Source: Betaproteobacteria bacterium (GTDB lineage Bacteria; Pseudomonadota; Gammaproteobacteria; Burkholderiales; Thiobacillaceae). From it: a DNA stretch of 64,000 nt. The notes below the pieces were generated by a model. The model did not search any database. It was not told the DNA's origin and saw only the letters and a program-made list of their open reading frames with translations. A program made the translations under genes and the position numbers. This document shows positions 23,304-59,343 of this stretch, in pieces; position 1 is the stretch's first letter, and each line of letters opens with the position of its first letter. The stretch lies in the NCBI GenBank assembly GCA_016873935.1, contig VGVT01000002.1, positions 1 to 64,000 of the forward strand. Direction: 5' to 3'.

Positions 23304-23376
23304 GTAGGGTGGATAAGCGCAGCGCATCCACCAATGGCGGCGGTGATGGTGGATGCGCTGCGCTTATCCACCCTAC
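23304..23376. repeat. Perfect 30-bp palindrome with 13-base loop
   Basis: The arm at 23304-23333 begins GTAGGGTGGATAAGCGCAGC and its exact reverse complement occupies 23347-23376. The loop is 13 bases. There is no T-tract. It lies between purU and galE inside the heptamer arms of locus A. The core sequence type is a dispersed repeat in many proteobacteria. Confidence 0.85.
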
Positions 23377-51841: not shown

Positions 51842-53143
51842 TCAGGCCGCGGCCTGCTTGCGCTCGAACCACTTCTCGGCTTCCTCGTCCCAGCCATCCA
51901 TGCGGACGTAGGGGTTGCTGCGGGGATGCACGATCATGTTGGCATCCACCTCGAGGCCGATGCCCTCCAGGAAGTTGACCAGGCCGATGCGATCGATCAT
52001 CTCGCCGGTACGCTCGTGCTCCAGAGCGTTCTCGGCGAAGAAGTCGAGGATGTTGCGGGACAGTTCGTTCAGCTTCTCGAAGTCCTCGTCGGACTCCATC
52101 TTCATGAACGGGATCACCACGGTACCCATGGTGGCACCGATCTTCAGCACGCCCTTGCCGCCCACCAGGATGGTGACGCCCTTGTCCTTGCCGGGCAGCA
52201 GCGCGCCGGGCATGACGTTCAGGCAGTGCATGCAGCGCACGCAGTTGTGGTTGTCGATCTCCAGGCAGTTGGCGTCGGACACGGCCACCTTGGTGATGCC
52301 CTCGCCGGCGGCGGCGCCGTCGTTCTTGACCAGGCGGATGGCGCGGGTGGGACACATGGAAACGACCATGTTGGTCAGGTCTTCCATGCTGTGCGCAGCC
52401 ATCCATTCACGGGCGATCTTCTCGTCCGCGCGCATGCTGTCGCGCCAGGTGCCGATGGTAGCCATGTCGGAACGCTGGATGGCGTTGACGCAGTCGTTGG
52501 GGCAGCCGGAGAACTTGAACTTGAACTTGTACGGCAGGGACGGACGGTGCATGTCGTCCAGGTTGTTGTTGATGACGGTGCGCAGGGCACGGGCCTCGTC
52601 ATAACAGGACATTTCGCAGCGGGCGGCGCCAACGCAGGACATGGAGGTACGCAGGGCGGGACCGGCGCCACCGAGGTCGAAGCCCATCTCGTTGAACTTG
52701 TCGAAGGAACGCTGCACATCCTCGGTCTTGATGCCCTGGAACATGATGTCGCCGGACTGGCCGTGGAAGGCGATCAGGCCGGAACCGCCGGTCTCAAGCC
52801 AGGCGTCGCACATCTGGCGCAGCAGGTCGGAGGTGTAGTGCATGCCGGCCGGGGGCTGGATGCGCAGGGTGTGGAACTCGGCGGCCTCGGGAAACTTGGG
52901 CTTGCCGTCGGCATCCTTGAGTTCGGTGAAACGGGGGATGACGCCGCCGCCATAGCCGACCACGCCGACGGTGCCACCCTTCCAGTAGCCAAACTTGGTC
53001 TCATAGGAGGTTTCGAGCTGGCCCATGAGGTCGACCATCATGTCGTTCTCGTTGGCCAGGCGCTTCAGGCCGGTGACGAAAGAGGGCCAGGGACCCTTCT
53101 CCAGATCGTCCAGGTTGGGCGTTTTATACGGTTGCTTAGCCAT
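51842..53143 (-). CDS. dsrA: DsrA, reverse dissimilatory sulfite reductase alpha subunit
   Basis: 433 aa, start at ATG 53143 with AAGGAG upstream. The siroheme-cluster ligands are in SCVGAARCEMSC and FSGCPNDCVNAIQRSD. The inserted ferredoxin domain is NCLEIDNHNCVRCMHCLNVMP. It is the first gene of the operon dsrABEFHCMKLJOP-NR-cysG. A 263-base region separates it from the divergent cassette. Presence of DsrL, DsrEFH and DsrN shows a sulfur-oxidising rather than sulfate-reducing role. Confidence 0.97.
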   Translation of the reverse strand: MAKQPYKTPNLDDLEKGPWPSFVTGLKRLANENDMMVDLMGQLETSYETKFGYWKGGTVGVVGYGGGVIPRFTELKDADGKPKFPEAAEFHTLRIQPPAGMHYTSDLLRQMCDAWLETGGSGLIAFHGQSGDIMFQGIKTEDVQRSFDKFNEMGFDLGGAGPALRTSMSCVGAARCEMSCYDEARALRTVINNNLDDMHRPSLPYKFKFKFSGCPNDCVNAIQRSDMATIGTWRDSMRADEKIAREWMAAHSMEDLTNMVVSMCPTRAIRLVKNDGAAAGEGITKVAVSDANCLEIDNHNCVRCMHCLNVMPGALLPGKDKGVTILVGGKGVLKIGATMGTVVIPFMKMESDEDFEKLNELSRNILDFFAENALEHERTGEMIDRIGLVNFLEGIGLEVDANMIVHPRSNPYVRMDGWDEEAEKWFERKQAAA

Positions 53144-53406
53144 CTGTCTTTCTCCTTGAAGTCTTGAACTACGGGTGTCGTCACAACTAACAGCACCTTG
53201 CCGCCGGCTTCAGACCGCACGGTCCAGTCATCGCATATTAGTGAGCCCTAATCGAGCCTTCCATCATTCCGATGGGGTAACTGGGTCCTTCACTCGGGTA
53301 TCCAGAACCTACCCGAAGGGGTAGGTTCTGGATAATCCATCTCGGAACTGTAAATACCCGACTTAAAATGTCAGATAATTAGCAAATCAACGAAAGCTTA
53401 TAGATT
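53144..53406. promoter_or_regulatory. Divergent promoter region, dsrA and Cmx6 cassette
   Basis: The 263 bases between the starts of dsrA and the 79-aa gene hold no gene. They must contain the promoters of both units. A perfect hairpin lies at 53300-53333. No sigma hexamer pair or known operator was confidently recognised. Confidence 0.6.
53300..53333. other. Perfect 15-bp hairpin with GAAG loop
   Basis: ATCCAGAACCTACCC pairs fully with GGGTAGGTTCTGGAT across a GAAG loop. It is 157 bases upstream of dsrA and 74 bases upstream of the 79-aa gene. No T-tract follows in either direction. It may be an operator dyad, or an RNA hairpin if transcribed. Confidence 0.8.
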
Positions 53407-54355: not shown

Positions 54356-54688
54356 GTGGGATACGTTTTGAACGGCGAAGAACTGGAAGTGGATGACGAT
54401 GGTTTCCTGCTGGAAGCCAATTTCAGCGACGAGATCGTCCCCGTCATCGCCGAGGCCGAAGGCATCACGCTGACCGACGAGCACTGGCAGATCATCAACT
54501 ACATGCGCCGCAAGTACCAGGAAGACGGCCACACGCCGAACTTCCGCAACATGGTGGCGGAACTGGACGAGGAAATCGAAGGCATGGACTGGAAGAAGAA
54601 GCTCTATGAACTCTTCCCCCTGCAGCCCAACCGCCAGGCCGCCAAGGTGGCCGGCCTGACCAAGCCTTTCGGCAAGGGCGGCTACTGA
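54356..54688 (+). CDS. DsrC/TusE-superfamily protein without cysteines (RspA type)
   Basis: 110 aa from GTG 54356, with AGGAGA upstream. The fold matches DsrC: LNGEELEVDDDGFLLEANF, LTDEHWQIINYMRRKY, KKLYELFPLQPNRQAAKVAGL. Both catalytic cysteines are lost: the first is Ala (RQAAKVAG) and the end is KPFGKGGY. There is no cysteine in the whole protein, so it cannot carry sulfur. Cysteine-less family members have been called RspA and proposed to be regulatory. It is a paralogue of dsrC 5 kb away. Confidence 0.88.
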   Translation: MGYVLNGEELEVDDDGFLLEANFSDEIVPVIAEAEGITLTDEHWQIINYMRRKYQEDGHTPNFRNMVAELDEEIEGMDWKKKLYELFPLQPNRQAAKVAGLTKPFGKGGY

Positions 54689-54693
54689 GAAGC

Positions 54694-54728
54694 GAGTAGC
54701 AGGTAGCAGGTAGCGGGTAGCCGGTAGC
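54694..54728 (+). repeat. Heptamer array, left arm (locus C)
   Basis: Five exact 7-base steps (GAGTAGC, AGGTAGC, AGGTAGC, GGGTAGC, CGGTAGC) start 5 bases after the DsrC-like gene. The opposing arm is at 54762-54803. Confidence 0.8.
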
Positions 54729-54761
54729 GAATGCATGCGCGCCTCCGGCGCGGAAATTCAA

Positions 54762-54803
54762 GCTACGAGCTACCCGCCACCCGCTACCAGCTACGAGCTA
54801 GCA
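54762..54803 (+). repeat. Heptamer array, right arm (locus C)
   Basis: Six 7-base steps beginning GCTACGA, GCTACCC end 3 bases before the sulfurtransferase start. They are reverse complements of the left arm, so a long stem can form. Confidence 0.8.
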
Positions 54804-55657: not shown

Positions 55658-56236
55658 GTGCTGCGCGCGAAAACCGTCTGGTTCAAGAAAGAAGGCGAGC
55701 GCCCCGCCGAGGAAGTCGCCACGGTCCTGGCCTCGACCATCTGGCGCCTCGCCGACAAGGCCGTGGACAACCTGTCCAAGGCCAATTTCGACATCGTCAC
55801 CCCCGAACGCGGCTTCAAGATCATCGGCGAGCTCAGTTGCTTCCTGACTCATTACGTCGATCGCCTGGCCTTCGAACGCATGGACGACAGCAAGCGCCTG
55901 AATCTGGTCAGCGCCGTCGGCGTGCGCCTGGCGGAAATCATGGAGCAGAACATCCTCGACATGACCGGCGGCAAGACGGATCCGGACTACGACTACCAGG
56001 ACGGCTACATCGACCTGCTCAACCGCCGCATGACGGATTATTCCGAGTTCGAATTTCCCGAGGACAAGGCCAGCTTCCAGGCCCTGCGCTTCCTCTCCCT
56101 GATGATCCGGGAGGGCATGGAGAAAACCGACCAGACCTGGATCCAGGACCAGCTCATGGACATCGAGGTGCCGGAGATGATGGGCATGGTCAAGAAGAAC
56201 ATGGACGGGTTTTATCCTGAAGGTCGTGCGTCGTGA
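55658..56236 (+). CDS. Conserved hypothetical protein of the Cmx6 cassette
   Basis: 192 aa, start GTG 55658 with GGAG upstream, 2 bases after the sulfurtransferase gene. It is mainly helical and soluble (ASTIWRLADKAVDNLSKANF, LVSAVGVRLAEIMEQNILDM). A single cysteine occurs in ELSCFLTHYVDRL. PDYDYQDGYIDLLNRRM is acidic and aromatic-rich. I recognise no domain. Its position couples it to the sulfurtransferase. Confidence 0.65.
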   Translation: MLRAKTVWFKKEGERPAEEVATVLASTIWRLADKAVDNLSKANFDIVTPERGFKIIGELSCFLTHYVDRLAFERMDDSKRLNLVSAVGVRLAEIMEQNILDMTGGKTDPDYDYQDGYIDLLNRRMTDYSEFEFPEDKASFQALRFLSLMIREGMEKTDQTWIQDQLMDIEVPEMMGMVKKNMDGFYPEGRAS

Positions 56237-56269
56237 GTGGCAAGTGGCAAGTGGCAAGTCGCAAGTAGA
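56235..56269 (+). repeat. Heptamer array, left arm (locus D)
   Basis: Five 7-base steps (GAGTGGC, AAGTGGC, AAGTGGC, AAGTCGC, AAGTAGA) begin at the stop of the 192-aa gene. The opposing arm is at 56288-56336. Confidence 0.75.
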
Positions 56270-56287
56270 ACAAGCGGACACGGTACC

Positions 56288-56336
56288 GACTCACGACTCA
56301 CGACTCACAACTCACGACTTGCCACCCGCCACTGAC
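56288..56336 (+). repeat. Heptamer array, right arm (locus D)
   Basis: Seven 7-base steps (GACTCAC three times, AACTCAC, GACTTGC, CACCCGC, CACTGAC) end 11 bases before the TauD-like gene. Part is complementary to the left arm at 56235-56269. Confidence 0.7.
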
Positions 56337-56347
56337 CACTCCCCGCC

Positions 56348-57442: not shown

Positions 57443-58108
57443 CTAGCCCCTGCCGGCGCCGCCGCCCGGCCCCAGCTTGTGTTCCACCGCGAACACCGCC
57501 GCCTCCACGCGCGAGGAGAGGTTCAGCTTGGCGAGGATGTGGCGCACGTGCAGCTTCACGGTGTCGTAGCTGATGTCCAGTTGCCGGGCGATGGCCTTGT
57601 TGCTTTCGCCCTTGGCCAGGTGAGAGAGGATTTCCCGCTCCCGCTGCGTCAGCGACTCCAGCAGCGAGGTGGCGCTGTTGCCCTTGTTGTCGAGCATGCG
57701 CACCAGCTTCGCGGTCATGCCCGGCGCCACCACGGTCTCGCCGCGGGCGGCGCGGATGATGGCGTCCACCACCTCGTCCGGCTCCATGCTCTTCAGCAGG
57801 TAACCCTTGGCGCCGTTGCGCAGGGCGCGCGCCATGTCCTCCTCCGCCTCGCTGACGGTAAGGATGAGCACCGGCAGATCATGGCCCTCGGCGCGCAGGG
57901 CCTGCATCACCTGGATGCCGTCGGTGCCGCCGATGTTGAGATCGAGGATCAGCACGTCCGGCCTCTTCTCCCGCAGCAGATCGGAGACCTCGGCGGGGTT
58001 GCCGGTGATGGCGGAAACGTTGACCGCCCCCTGACTTTCCAGGAGTTCGGCCAGACCCTTGCGGAACAGGGTGTGGTCGTCCACCAGGACGATGCTCAAT
58101 CGGCTCAA
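57443..58108 (-). CDS. NarL/FixJ-type response regulator
   Basis: 221 aa. It starts at TTG 58108 (GGAG upstream), overlapping the kinase stop as TTGA. The receiver domain has VLVDDHTLFRKGLAELL, the phospho-Asp in VLILDLNIGGTDG, T in ILTVSEAEED and K in GYLLKSM. The LuxR-type HTH is LTQREREILSHLAKGESNKAIARQL and KLHVRHILAKLNLSSRVEAAV. It forms a two-component pair with the upstream kinase. The gene ends at TAG in a CTAG next to the MITE-like element. Confidence 0.93.
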   Translation of the reverse strand: MSRLSIVLVDDHTLFRKGLAELLESQGAVNVSAITGNPAEVSDLLREKRPDVLILDLNIGGTDGIQVMQALRAEGHDLPVLILTVSEAEEDMARALRNGAKGYLLKSMEPDEVVDAIIRAARGETVVAPGMTAKLVRMLDNKGNSATSLLESLTQREREILSHLAKGESNKAIARQLDISYDTVKLHVRHILAKLNLSSRVEAAVFAVEHKLGPGGGAGRG

Positions 58109-59343
58109 GATTTCTCCTCGATGCCCTGGCGGGCCGGGAAGCTGAGCCGGACGATGGTGCCGCCTGCCGGCCGGCTTTCGATGGTGAGGCGCCCGCCCAG
58201 CTTGGCGGCGCGTTCGCGCATGATGGTGAGACCGAAGCTCTTGCCCATGTCGGTGGTGGCGTGCGACACCAAACCCACACCGTCGTCGGCCACGTTCACC
58301 ACGTACTGTTTTTCGTGCAGATCCAGGGTCACCACCACGTGGCGGGCACGGGAGTGTTTGCAGATGTTGTAGAGGGCTTCCTGGATGATGTGGAAGACCT
58401 GGATTTCCTCTTCCGGCGTCAGCACCACGTCCTGCGCGACGTTGAGGAAGTCGACGTCGGCGTTGGCCTTCTTGCTGAAGCTTTCCGCCATCTCCTGCAG
58501 GGCCGGCACCAGGCCGCGCGGATCGATGCGGTCGCGGAACTGGGTGATGAGGTTGCGCAGTTCCGAGTAAGCCATGTCCACCGCCTCCTCGACGTCGCCC
58601 AGGTAGCGGTTGGCGCGGTCCTGGTCGCCGTCGGCGAAGGCCTCGTTGAGCACCGACAGGCGCATCTTCGCGTAGGCCAGAGTCTGCGCCAGGGAATCGT
58701 GGATCTGGTTGGCCAGCATGGTGCGCTCGTTCATCAGCGAGATGCGCATGTTCTCGCGCGTCAGGCGGGTGTTCTCCAGGGCCATGCCCAGGTGTTCGCT
58801 GATCGAGTTGAAGAGGGTGCGGATGTCCCGCGGCAGGGGCTCGGGGTTGTCCAGGAAGATGTTGTACACCCCCATCACCTTGCCCTTGTAGCGCAGGGGC
58901 ACGGCATACACCGTGCTGCAATGCTGGGCGAAGTAGATGTGGCGCACCTGCTTCTGGCACACCTCCATGACGCTTTCGCTTTGCGAGGACTGGGTGAGCG
59001 TGGCCTTGCCGCAGATGCCGCATTCCAGCGGCACGTAGCGCTCCTTTTCCACCAGCGCGGGGGAAAGCCCGATAGAGCCCACCATGCGCAGGTGGGCGCC
59101 GTCGGCGGTGAGGACGCGCACCGCGCCGGCCTTGGCCCTGGAAATGCGCACCATGATTTCCAGGAAGCGCATGAGCATCTGTTCGGTGTCGGCTTCCGCG
59201 CTCATGCTGCTGGCGATTTCCGCCAGCACCTCGATGACCGGCAGGCGATCGCCACCCTCCGCGCCGGCTCCGGGCGGTTCACCGGGCTCCGGGGTAGTGC
59301 TGGCCATGCCTATGGCGTCGAGGGGAATGCGGTAGGTTTCCAC
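58105..59343 (-). CDS. NarX-type histidine kinase with Cys-rich GAF domain
   Basis: 412 aa, soluble, no membrane helix. A GAF domain (about 35-205) holds four cysteines at 108, 111, 129 and 142 (CGIC, EVCQKQ, QHCSTV), a pattern that could bind an iron-sulfur cluster or sense redox. The HisKA_3 dimerisation segment has QIHDSLAQTLAYAKMRL with the phospho-His. The HATPase shows FHIIQEALYNICKHSRA and VADDGVGL, GLTIMRERAAKLGG. It lacks the periplasmic sensor of NarX. Co-transcribed with the response regulator. Confidence 0.9.
   Translation of the reverse strand: METYRIPLDAIGMASTTPEPGEPPGAGAEGGDRLPVIEVLAEIASSMSAEADTEQMLMRFLEIMVRISRAKAGAVRVLTADGAHLRMVGSIGLSPALVEKERYVPLECGICGKATLTQSSQSESVMEVCQKQVRHIYFAQHCSTVYAVPLRYKGKVMGVYNIFLDNPEPLPRDIRTLFNSISEHLGMALENTRLTRENMRISLMNERTMLANQIHDSLAQTLAYAKMRLSVLNEAFADGDQDRANRYLGDVEEAVDMAYSELRNLITQFRDRIDPRGLVPALQEMAESFSKKANADVDFLNVAQDVVLTPEEEIQVFHIIQEALYNICKHSRARHVVVTLDLHEKQYVVNVADDGVGLVSHATTDMGKSFGLTIMRERAAKLGGRLTIESRPAGGTIVRLSFPARQGIEEKS

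Follow-up and report, generated by a model that had tools for sequence, protein, structure and literature searches.

The classic NarL site of Escherichia coli has a 7-2-7 arrangement and reads TAC-N10-GTA. The consensus of the NarL heptamer is TACYYMT (PMC4886647). BvgA, a relative of NarL, occupies DNA as head-to-head dimers spaced 22 bp apart; the outermost upstream site is a strong inverted heptad, and the proximal dimer abuts the −35 (PMC7250471). Among regulators of sulfur-oxidation genes, sHdrR and SoxR of Hyphomicrobium are one-component, sulfane-sulfur-responsive ArsR repressors of sHdr/Sox genes (PMC12423496). A search of the literature, partial in its coverage, turned up no published report of a regulator for the reverse-Dsr operon in Betaproteobacteria. 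Searches on Cmx6 with dsr, on RspA and on a dsr two-component system gave nothing usable.

Here we describe a long hairpin upstream of dsrA in a betaproteobacterial window (the whole stretch of DNA analysed, 64 000 nt). Conservation among relatives indicates that the hairpin most likely belongs to a series of regularly spaced operator sites in the DNA, of which it is the most symmetrical, and is not an RNA element.

Genomic context

The hairpin lies between dsrA, on the minus strand, and a divergent gene cluster, where a preliminary description of the sequence had placed it: the 79 aa DUF6967 gene comes first and is followed by a Cas6/Cmx6-like gene, whose product scores 147.5 bits against TIGR02807 (NCBIfam cut-off 98.85). 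The order on the plus strand to the right of the hairpin is DUF6967, Cas6/Cmx6-like, DsrC-like, rhodanese-like, an unnamed protein and TauD-like. This divergent arrangement of dsrA and the DUF6967, Cas6-like and DsrC-like genes is conserved in approximately 75 of the retrieved loci, from Betaproteobacteria and a few Gammaproteobacteria. Coordinates are collected in Table 1.

Table 1. Genes, predicted promoter elements and candidate operator sites around the hairpin (positions in the window)
Feature	Position	Strand	Remarks
dsrA	51842..53143	-	First gene of the reverse-Dsr operon
Predicted dsrA −10 box, TAATAT on the minus strand	53235..53240	-	Distance to site i 26–27 bp in all cases where both were detected
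Candidate operator site i, CCATCATTCCGATGGGGTA	53261..53279	.	Adjoins dsrA promoter; conserved across Thiobacillaceae, with a homologue in other families
Additional candidate operator site	53286..53300	.	Right half GGGTA at 53296–53300, 23 bp before that of site ii; degenerate left half
Hairpin/dyad	53299..53334	.	16 bp perfect arms, 4 nt centre GAAG
Candidate operator site ii (hairpin core), ACCTACCC-N4-GGGTAGGT	53307..53326	.	CTACCC/GGGTAG near-invariant in 33 Thiobacillaceae sequences
Candidate operator site iii, approximate	53333..53358	.	Adjoins DUF6967 promoter; position inferred for this genome
Predicted −10 box GATAAT of the DUF6967–cas6-like operon	53374..53379	+	Conserved TGTCAGATAAT
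DUF6967 protein (PF22295), 79 aa	53407..53646	+	
Cas6/Cmx6-like protein (PF09559, TIGR02807), 217 aa	53650..54303	+	
DsrC-like protein	54356..54688	+	Without C-terminal cysteines
NarL-type response regulator (Response_reg + GerE)	57443..58117	-	Proposed array binder; start codon approximate
Partner sensor kinase (GAF + HisKA_3 + HATPase_c)	58105..59343	-	GAF with four Cys, mostly conserved in relatives

In reverse-Dsr Betaproteobacteria (loci L032–L111), dsrA is regularly accompanied by the Cas6/Cmx6-like gene, often in genomes that lack cas1, and the annotation of its product as a CRISPR protein is probably misleading. As cas1 was undetectable in the genome studied here and in 18 others of the 49 examined, the function of the Cas6-like protein probably lies outside CRISPR. 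The DsrC-like protein of the divergent operon is retained without the C-terminal cysteines of DsrC, and is possibly a regulator rather than a sulfur carrier. In two intergenic stretches of the operon (54691–54799 and 56223–56340), short tandem-like repeats of the GTAGC and GACTCAC types form imperfect inverted repeats. The longest perfect inverted repeat in the window (30 bp with a 13 nt spacer, 23304–23376) is likely a mobile or repeat element.

Hairpin and conservation in Thiobacillaceae

The perfect stem, first described as 15 bp with a GAAG loop at 53300–53333, is one base pair longer, with arms of 16 bp at 53299–53314 and 53319–53334 that are 100 % complementary. Folded as RNA, the hairpin region reaches −44.1 kcal/mol (z = −4.57), a stability equalled in none of 200 shuffles. 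Rfam at a permissive threshold gave chance-level matches only on the hairpin.

An intergenic alignment of 30 genomes shows conserved blocks, not a conserved hairpin as such. Across 33 distinct Thiobacillaceae sequences the core CTACCC-N4-GGGTAG is 94–100 % conserved; the tetranucleotide between the half-sites and the outer arms are variable, the uninterrupted stem ranges from 6 to 18 bp, and the outer arms pair at 6 or more of 8 positions in only six sequences. The same dyad was thus to be found upstream of dsrA in relatives with regard to its near-invariant core, but the long perfect stem is present only in some Thiobacillaceae. Outer arms that pair perfectly or almost perfectly, with sequences unrelated to one another, occur in separate lineages, namely the genome studied here, locus L009 and the group of L017, L023 and L024, and pairing in most other lineages is near chance. 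Changes on both sides of the outer arms numbered 66 cells versus 45.7 in shuffled or slid controls. Outer-arm covariation was 0.203 versus 0.140 in controls, an excess driven by the few lineages with unrelated arm sequences, in a test where related sequences can exceed shuffles even without structure.

Tandem array of dyads

The intergenic dyads between dsrA and DUF6967 are tandem, imperfect and 14–15 bp long, with the consensus YACCC-N4/5-RGGTA and a period of 23 bp (21 and 23 bp in Thiobacillaceae). The array runs from the side of the dsrA −10 box towards the DUF6967 promoter. Most Thiobacillaceae have TAC-N8-GTA as the spacing within the dyad; elsewhere it is N9. In nearly all Thiobacillaceae sequences, right halves are located at −44/−45, −23/−24 and 0 relative to the right half of the hairpin. 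Outside this family the site homologous to the hairpin is an imperfect dyad, e.g. CCTACCCGAAAGGAGTAT or CTACCCATTAGGGCTAT, with similar dyads 23 or 46 bp off (starts 69/92/115 in L055 and 126/149/172 in L085), and site iii, degenerate in Thiobacillaceae, is clear (CACTCCCATCCGGTGATGG). In 34 dereplicated sequences outside Thiobacillaceae, [CT]A[CT]-N9-[GTC]T[AG] pairs numbered 18 at a lag of 23 bp and 16 at 46 bp, compared with an average of 0.7 over the remaining lags and no more than 5 in any of 200 mononucleotide shuffles. The hairpin can be regarded as one copy of this array, made palindromic in Thiobacillaceae.

At least five of the seven positions of TACYYMT are matched by 38 of 48 left and 36 of 48 right half-sites, positions 1–3 being partly imposed by the search pattern. 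Further motif copies within one mismatch showed no clear excess over a reversed-pattern control outside the dsr locus in 22 genomes; in the part examined around the single additional exact copy (G001:C27), neither a dsr gene nor an array was seen. A second copy of dsrA is present in several genomes (L128–L131), and there the upstream region has neither array nor divergent DUF6967 gene, except for a single dyad-like site in G027.

The proposal of an operator for a dimeric regulator is strengthened by these data, since the core half-sites are invariant in sequence and not in pairing alone, and since the dyads stand in a tandem array at a fixed distance from a promoter box. On these patterns of conservation, a putative operator at the hairpin is well supported.

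Predicted promoters

That the hairpin occupies a shared promoter region also finds support, in the form of a −10 box that is conserved towards dsrA and a less firm one towards DUF6967. The dsrA-side box has the form TANNAT in the minus-strand reading (AT..TA on the plus strand) and keeps its 26–27 bp from site i across families; a simple pattern found no such box in some sequences. On the DUF6967 side, many Thiobacillaceae share a conserved TGTCAGATAAT, and other families show a box of the TGCGATAGT type. A generic sigma-70 scan listed neither −10 box. Transcription is predicted to start near 53228 (minus strand) and 53386 (plus strand), and the hairpin would therefore lie upstream of both starts and outside both transcripts. 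A leaderless DUF6967 transcript from the gene's own ATG was considered as an alternative to the GATAAT box; with either start the hairpin would stay outside the transcript.

Two-component system linked to dsr

The best PDB match of the response regulator is NarL. Among 200 genomes of the order, dsrA was found in 40 and the Cas6-like gene in 37. An orthologue of the response regulator is present in 38 of the 40 genomes with dsrA versus 1 of the 160 without (Fisher 2e-37, indicative only, as genomes are not independent and phylogeny is uncorrected). The orthologue cut-off, approximately 198 bits, was picked after the list was seen and is tight in family f25, at 198–201 bits versus 190–201 for the best non-dsr matches. 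A clear orthologue occurs in 30 of 31 genomes with the Cas6-like gene, at 51–100 % identity, set apart from a paralogue group at approximately 40–45 %. The array is present and no orthologue was detected in G018 and G215, both assemblies of 170 contigs.

The regulator/kinase pair adjoins the dsr operon at its dsrN/cysG end in seven loci (L112–L117 and L120). In L121 it is close to the operon, in L123 its neighbours are a dsrC-like gene and dsrN, and in L118 it is found beyond the DUF6967 operon. A location on the Cas6 side was rejected as a general rule: it applies only to some Thiobacillus, and elsewhere the regulator is usually at the far end of the dsr operon. The recognition-helix region of the regulator, TVKLHVRHIL.KL.L.SRVEAAVFAVE, is almost unchanged across families, and a near-identical DNA-recognition region is to be expected if the operator is conserved.

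The sensor kinase appears from its sequence to be soluble. Its GAF domain contains CGxCG...C...C in nearly all relatives read (L112–L124; L120 lacks the last Cys), and may possibly be a redox, Fe-S or sulfur sensor.

Discussion

The locus shows inverted half-sites, near-two-turn spacing and a response regulator tied to it by linkage and co-occurrence, as do operator arrays of the NarL/FixJ type. Like the NarX-NarL system of E. coli, it combines a response regulator closest to NarL in the PDB with half-sites that fit TACYYMT; unlike that system, the kinase has a GAF domain with no membrane sensor evident, the dyad is N8/N9, and the pair is dsr-linked in the loci examined. The array may thus work like a NarL-family array, yet it is no textbook NarL site, the 7-2-7 spacing having been looked for and not found. 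The BvgA promoter arrays of Bordetella are comparable in their tandem dimer sites approximately two helical turns apart, in one strong inverted-repeat site upstream, and in weaker sites that reach the −35 region. They differ in the half-site (TTTCCTA-type versus TACCC here), in the period (22 bp versus 23, or 21/23, here) and in the genes controlled, and the array described here lies between two divergent promoters. The resemblance to sHdrR and SoxR is that all would regulate sulfur-oxidation genes; a two-component system acting on a tandem array is proposed here instead. A lux box was also considered and rejected: the 20 bp CT-N12-AG dyad is found in many Thiobacillaceae only and is lost at the homologous site elsewhere.

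We consider it probable that the hairpin acts as an operator in double-stranded DNA and represents the strongest binding site for a NarL-family activator specific to dsr. Dimer sites with the half-site TACCC, approximately every 23 bp, would occupy the interval from the dsrA promoter to the divergent DUF6967–Cas6-like promoter, and the protein likely to bind them is the NarL-family response regulator belonging to the dsr-linked two-component system (57443–59343). The GAF kinase would phosphorylate the regulator, dimers would occupy the strong palindromic site first, weaker sites would then be filled cooperatively down to the −35 regions, and both divergent operons would be switched together. 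The case for assigning the array to this regulator is strong but circumstantial. The array with its spacing and conservation, its constant distance from a −10 box, and the linkage and co-occurrence of regulator and dsrA are observed; the promoters, binding by this regulator, an activating and not a repressing effect, and the signal are inferred. Against this explanation stand the N8 (most Thiobacillaceae) or N9 spacing versus the N10 of the classic NarL site and the two genomes with an array and no detected orthologue. A sequence-specific operator also leaves unexplained the outer arms that are variable yet complementary in some lineages. The evidence for an operator names no protein, and another dimeric binder, be it a different GerE-type protein or the Cys-less DsrC-like protein of the divergent operon, would fit the same sites. 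DsrC of Allochromatium vinosum reportedly binds the region upstream of dsrA, the Thiobacillaceae site ACCTACCCGATCGGGTAGGT also has the lux-box-like spacing CT-N12-AG, and the two genomes without a detected orthologue point in the same direction. However, the ACCT/AGGT ends are lost outside Thiobacillaceae, the response regulator is dsr-linked in many families with half-sites that fit the NarL family, and no other regulator was found to track dsrA, the dsr-linked one being the only one profiled. We regard a different binder as unlikely.

For the outer arms, the simplest account is template switching at a pre-existing quasi-palindromic operator, with exact palindromy a by-product that has no function itself. 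This account is compatible with the operator, and we give it an even chance: arms of unrelated sequence that are perfect or nearly so in separate lineages, with near-chance pairing in most others, favour it, whereas the excess of complementary double changes over controls could also come from selection. Selection of the extended Thiobacillaceae arms as a structure on top of the response-regulator operator, whether as a cruciform or transient hairpin at the divergent promoters or as an unannotated small-RNA hairpin, perhaps read by the dsr-linked Cas6-like protein, seems quite improbable. The preliminary description had also suggested an RNA substrate for the Cas6-family protein. An element in the 5′ leader that this protein binds or cuts, for autoregulation or processing, would suit the stability of the hairpin, the Cas6-family gene 316 bp away, and paired outer arms changed on both sides in some Thiobacillaceae. 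Yet the predicted starts would leave 53299–53334 out of both transcripts. Nor do hairpin and gene co-occur: the strong stem, found in some Thiobacillaceae only, is missing in most genomes with the Cas6-like gene, which is conserved in dozens of others, and the dyads seen in other families that carry this gene are all short and imperfect. Conversely, G117 and G160 retain dsrA, DUF6967, the regulator and the array with no Cas6-like gene detected, DUF6967 being followed directly by the DsrC-like gene in G160 and by a TusA-like frame in G117. The central core is moreover conserved in sequence, without the turnover that selection on structure alone permits. The RNA-substrate claim is not supported, and we hold such an element to be very improbable. 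An ordinary intrinsic terminator or a mobile repeat (REP/MITE) has next to no probability, although long perfect stems are typical of both. The hairpin has no T-tract after it and is absent from the terminator-scan list, as the earlier view that it is no usual terminator would have it, and the combination of GC-rich stem and T-tract was not found. The dyad is present once in the 2.7-Mb assembly (search with up to three mismatches), where dispersed repeats (REP/MITE) or CRISPR repeats would be multi-copy. In addition, the hairpin sits between divergent genes, and its core and orthologous position are kept across Thiobacillaceae.

Taken with a dsr-linked two-component system found in 38 of 40 dsrA genomes, the array leads to a concrete hypothesis of one regulator, one operator region and two divergent operons. 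Under this hypothesis the divergent operons include the Cas6-like protein, which suggests that expression of its gene is coupled to sulfur oxidation and not to CRISPR. The little-studied control of the reverse-Dsr genes would thereby become directly testable.
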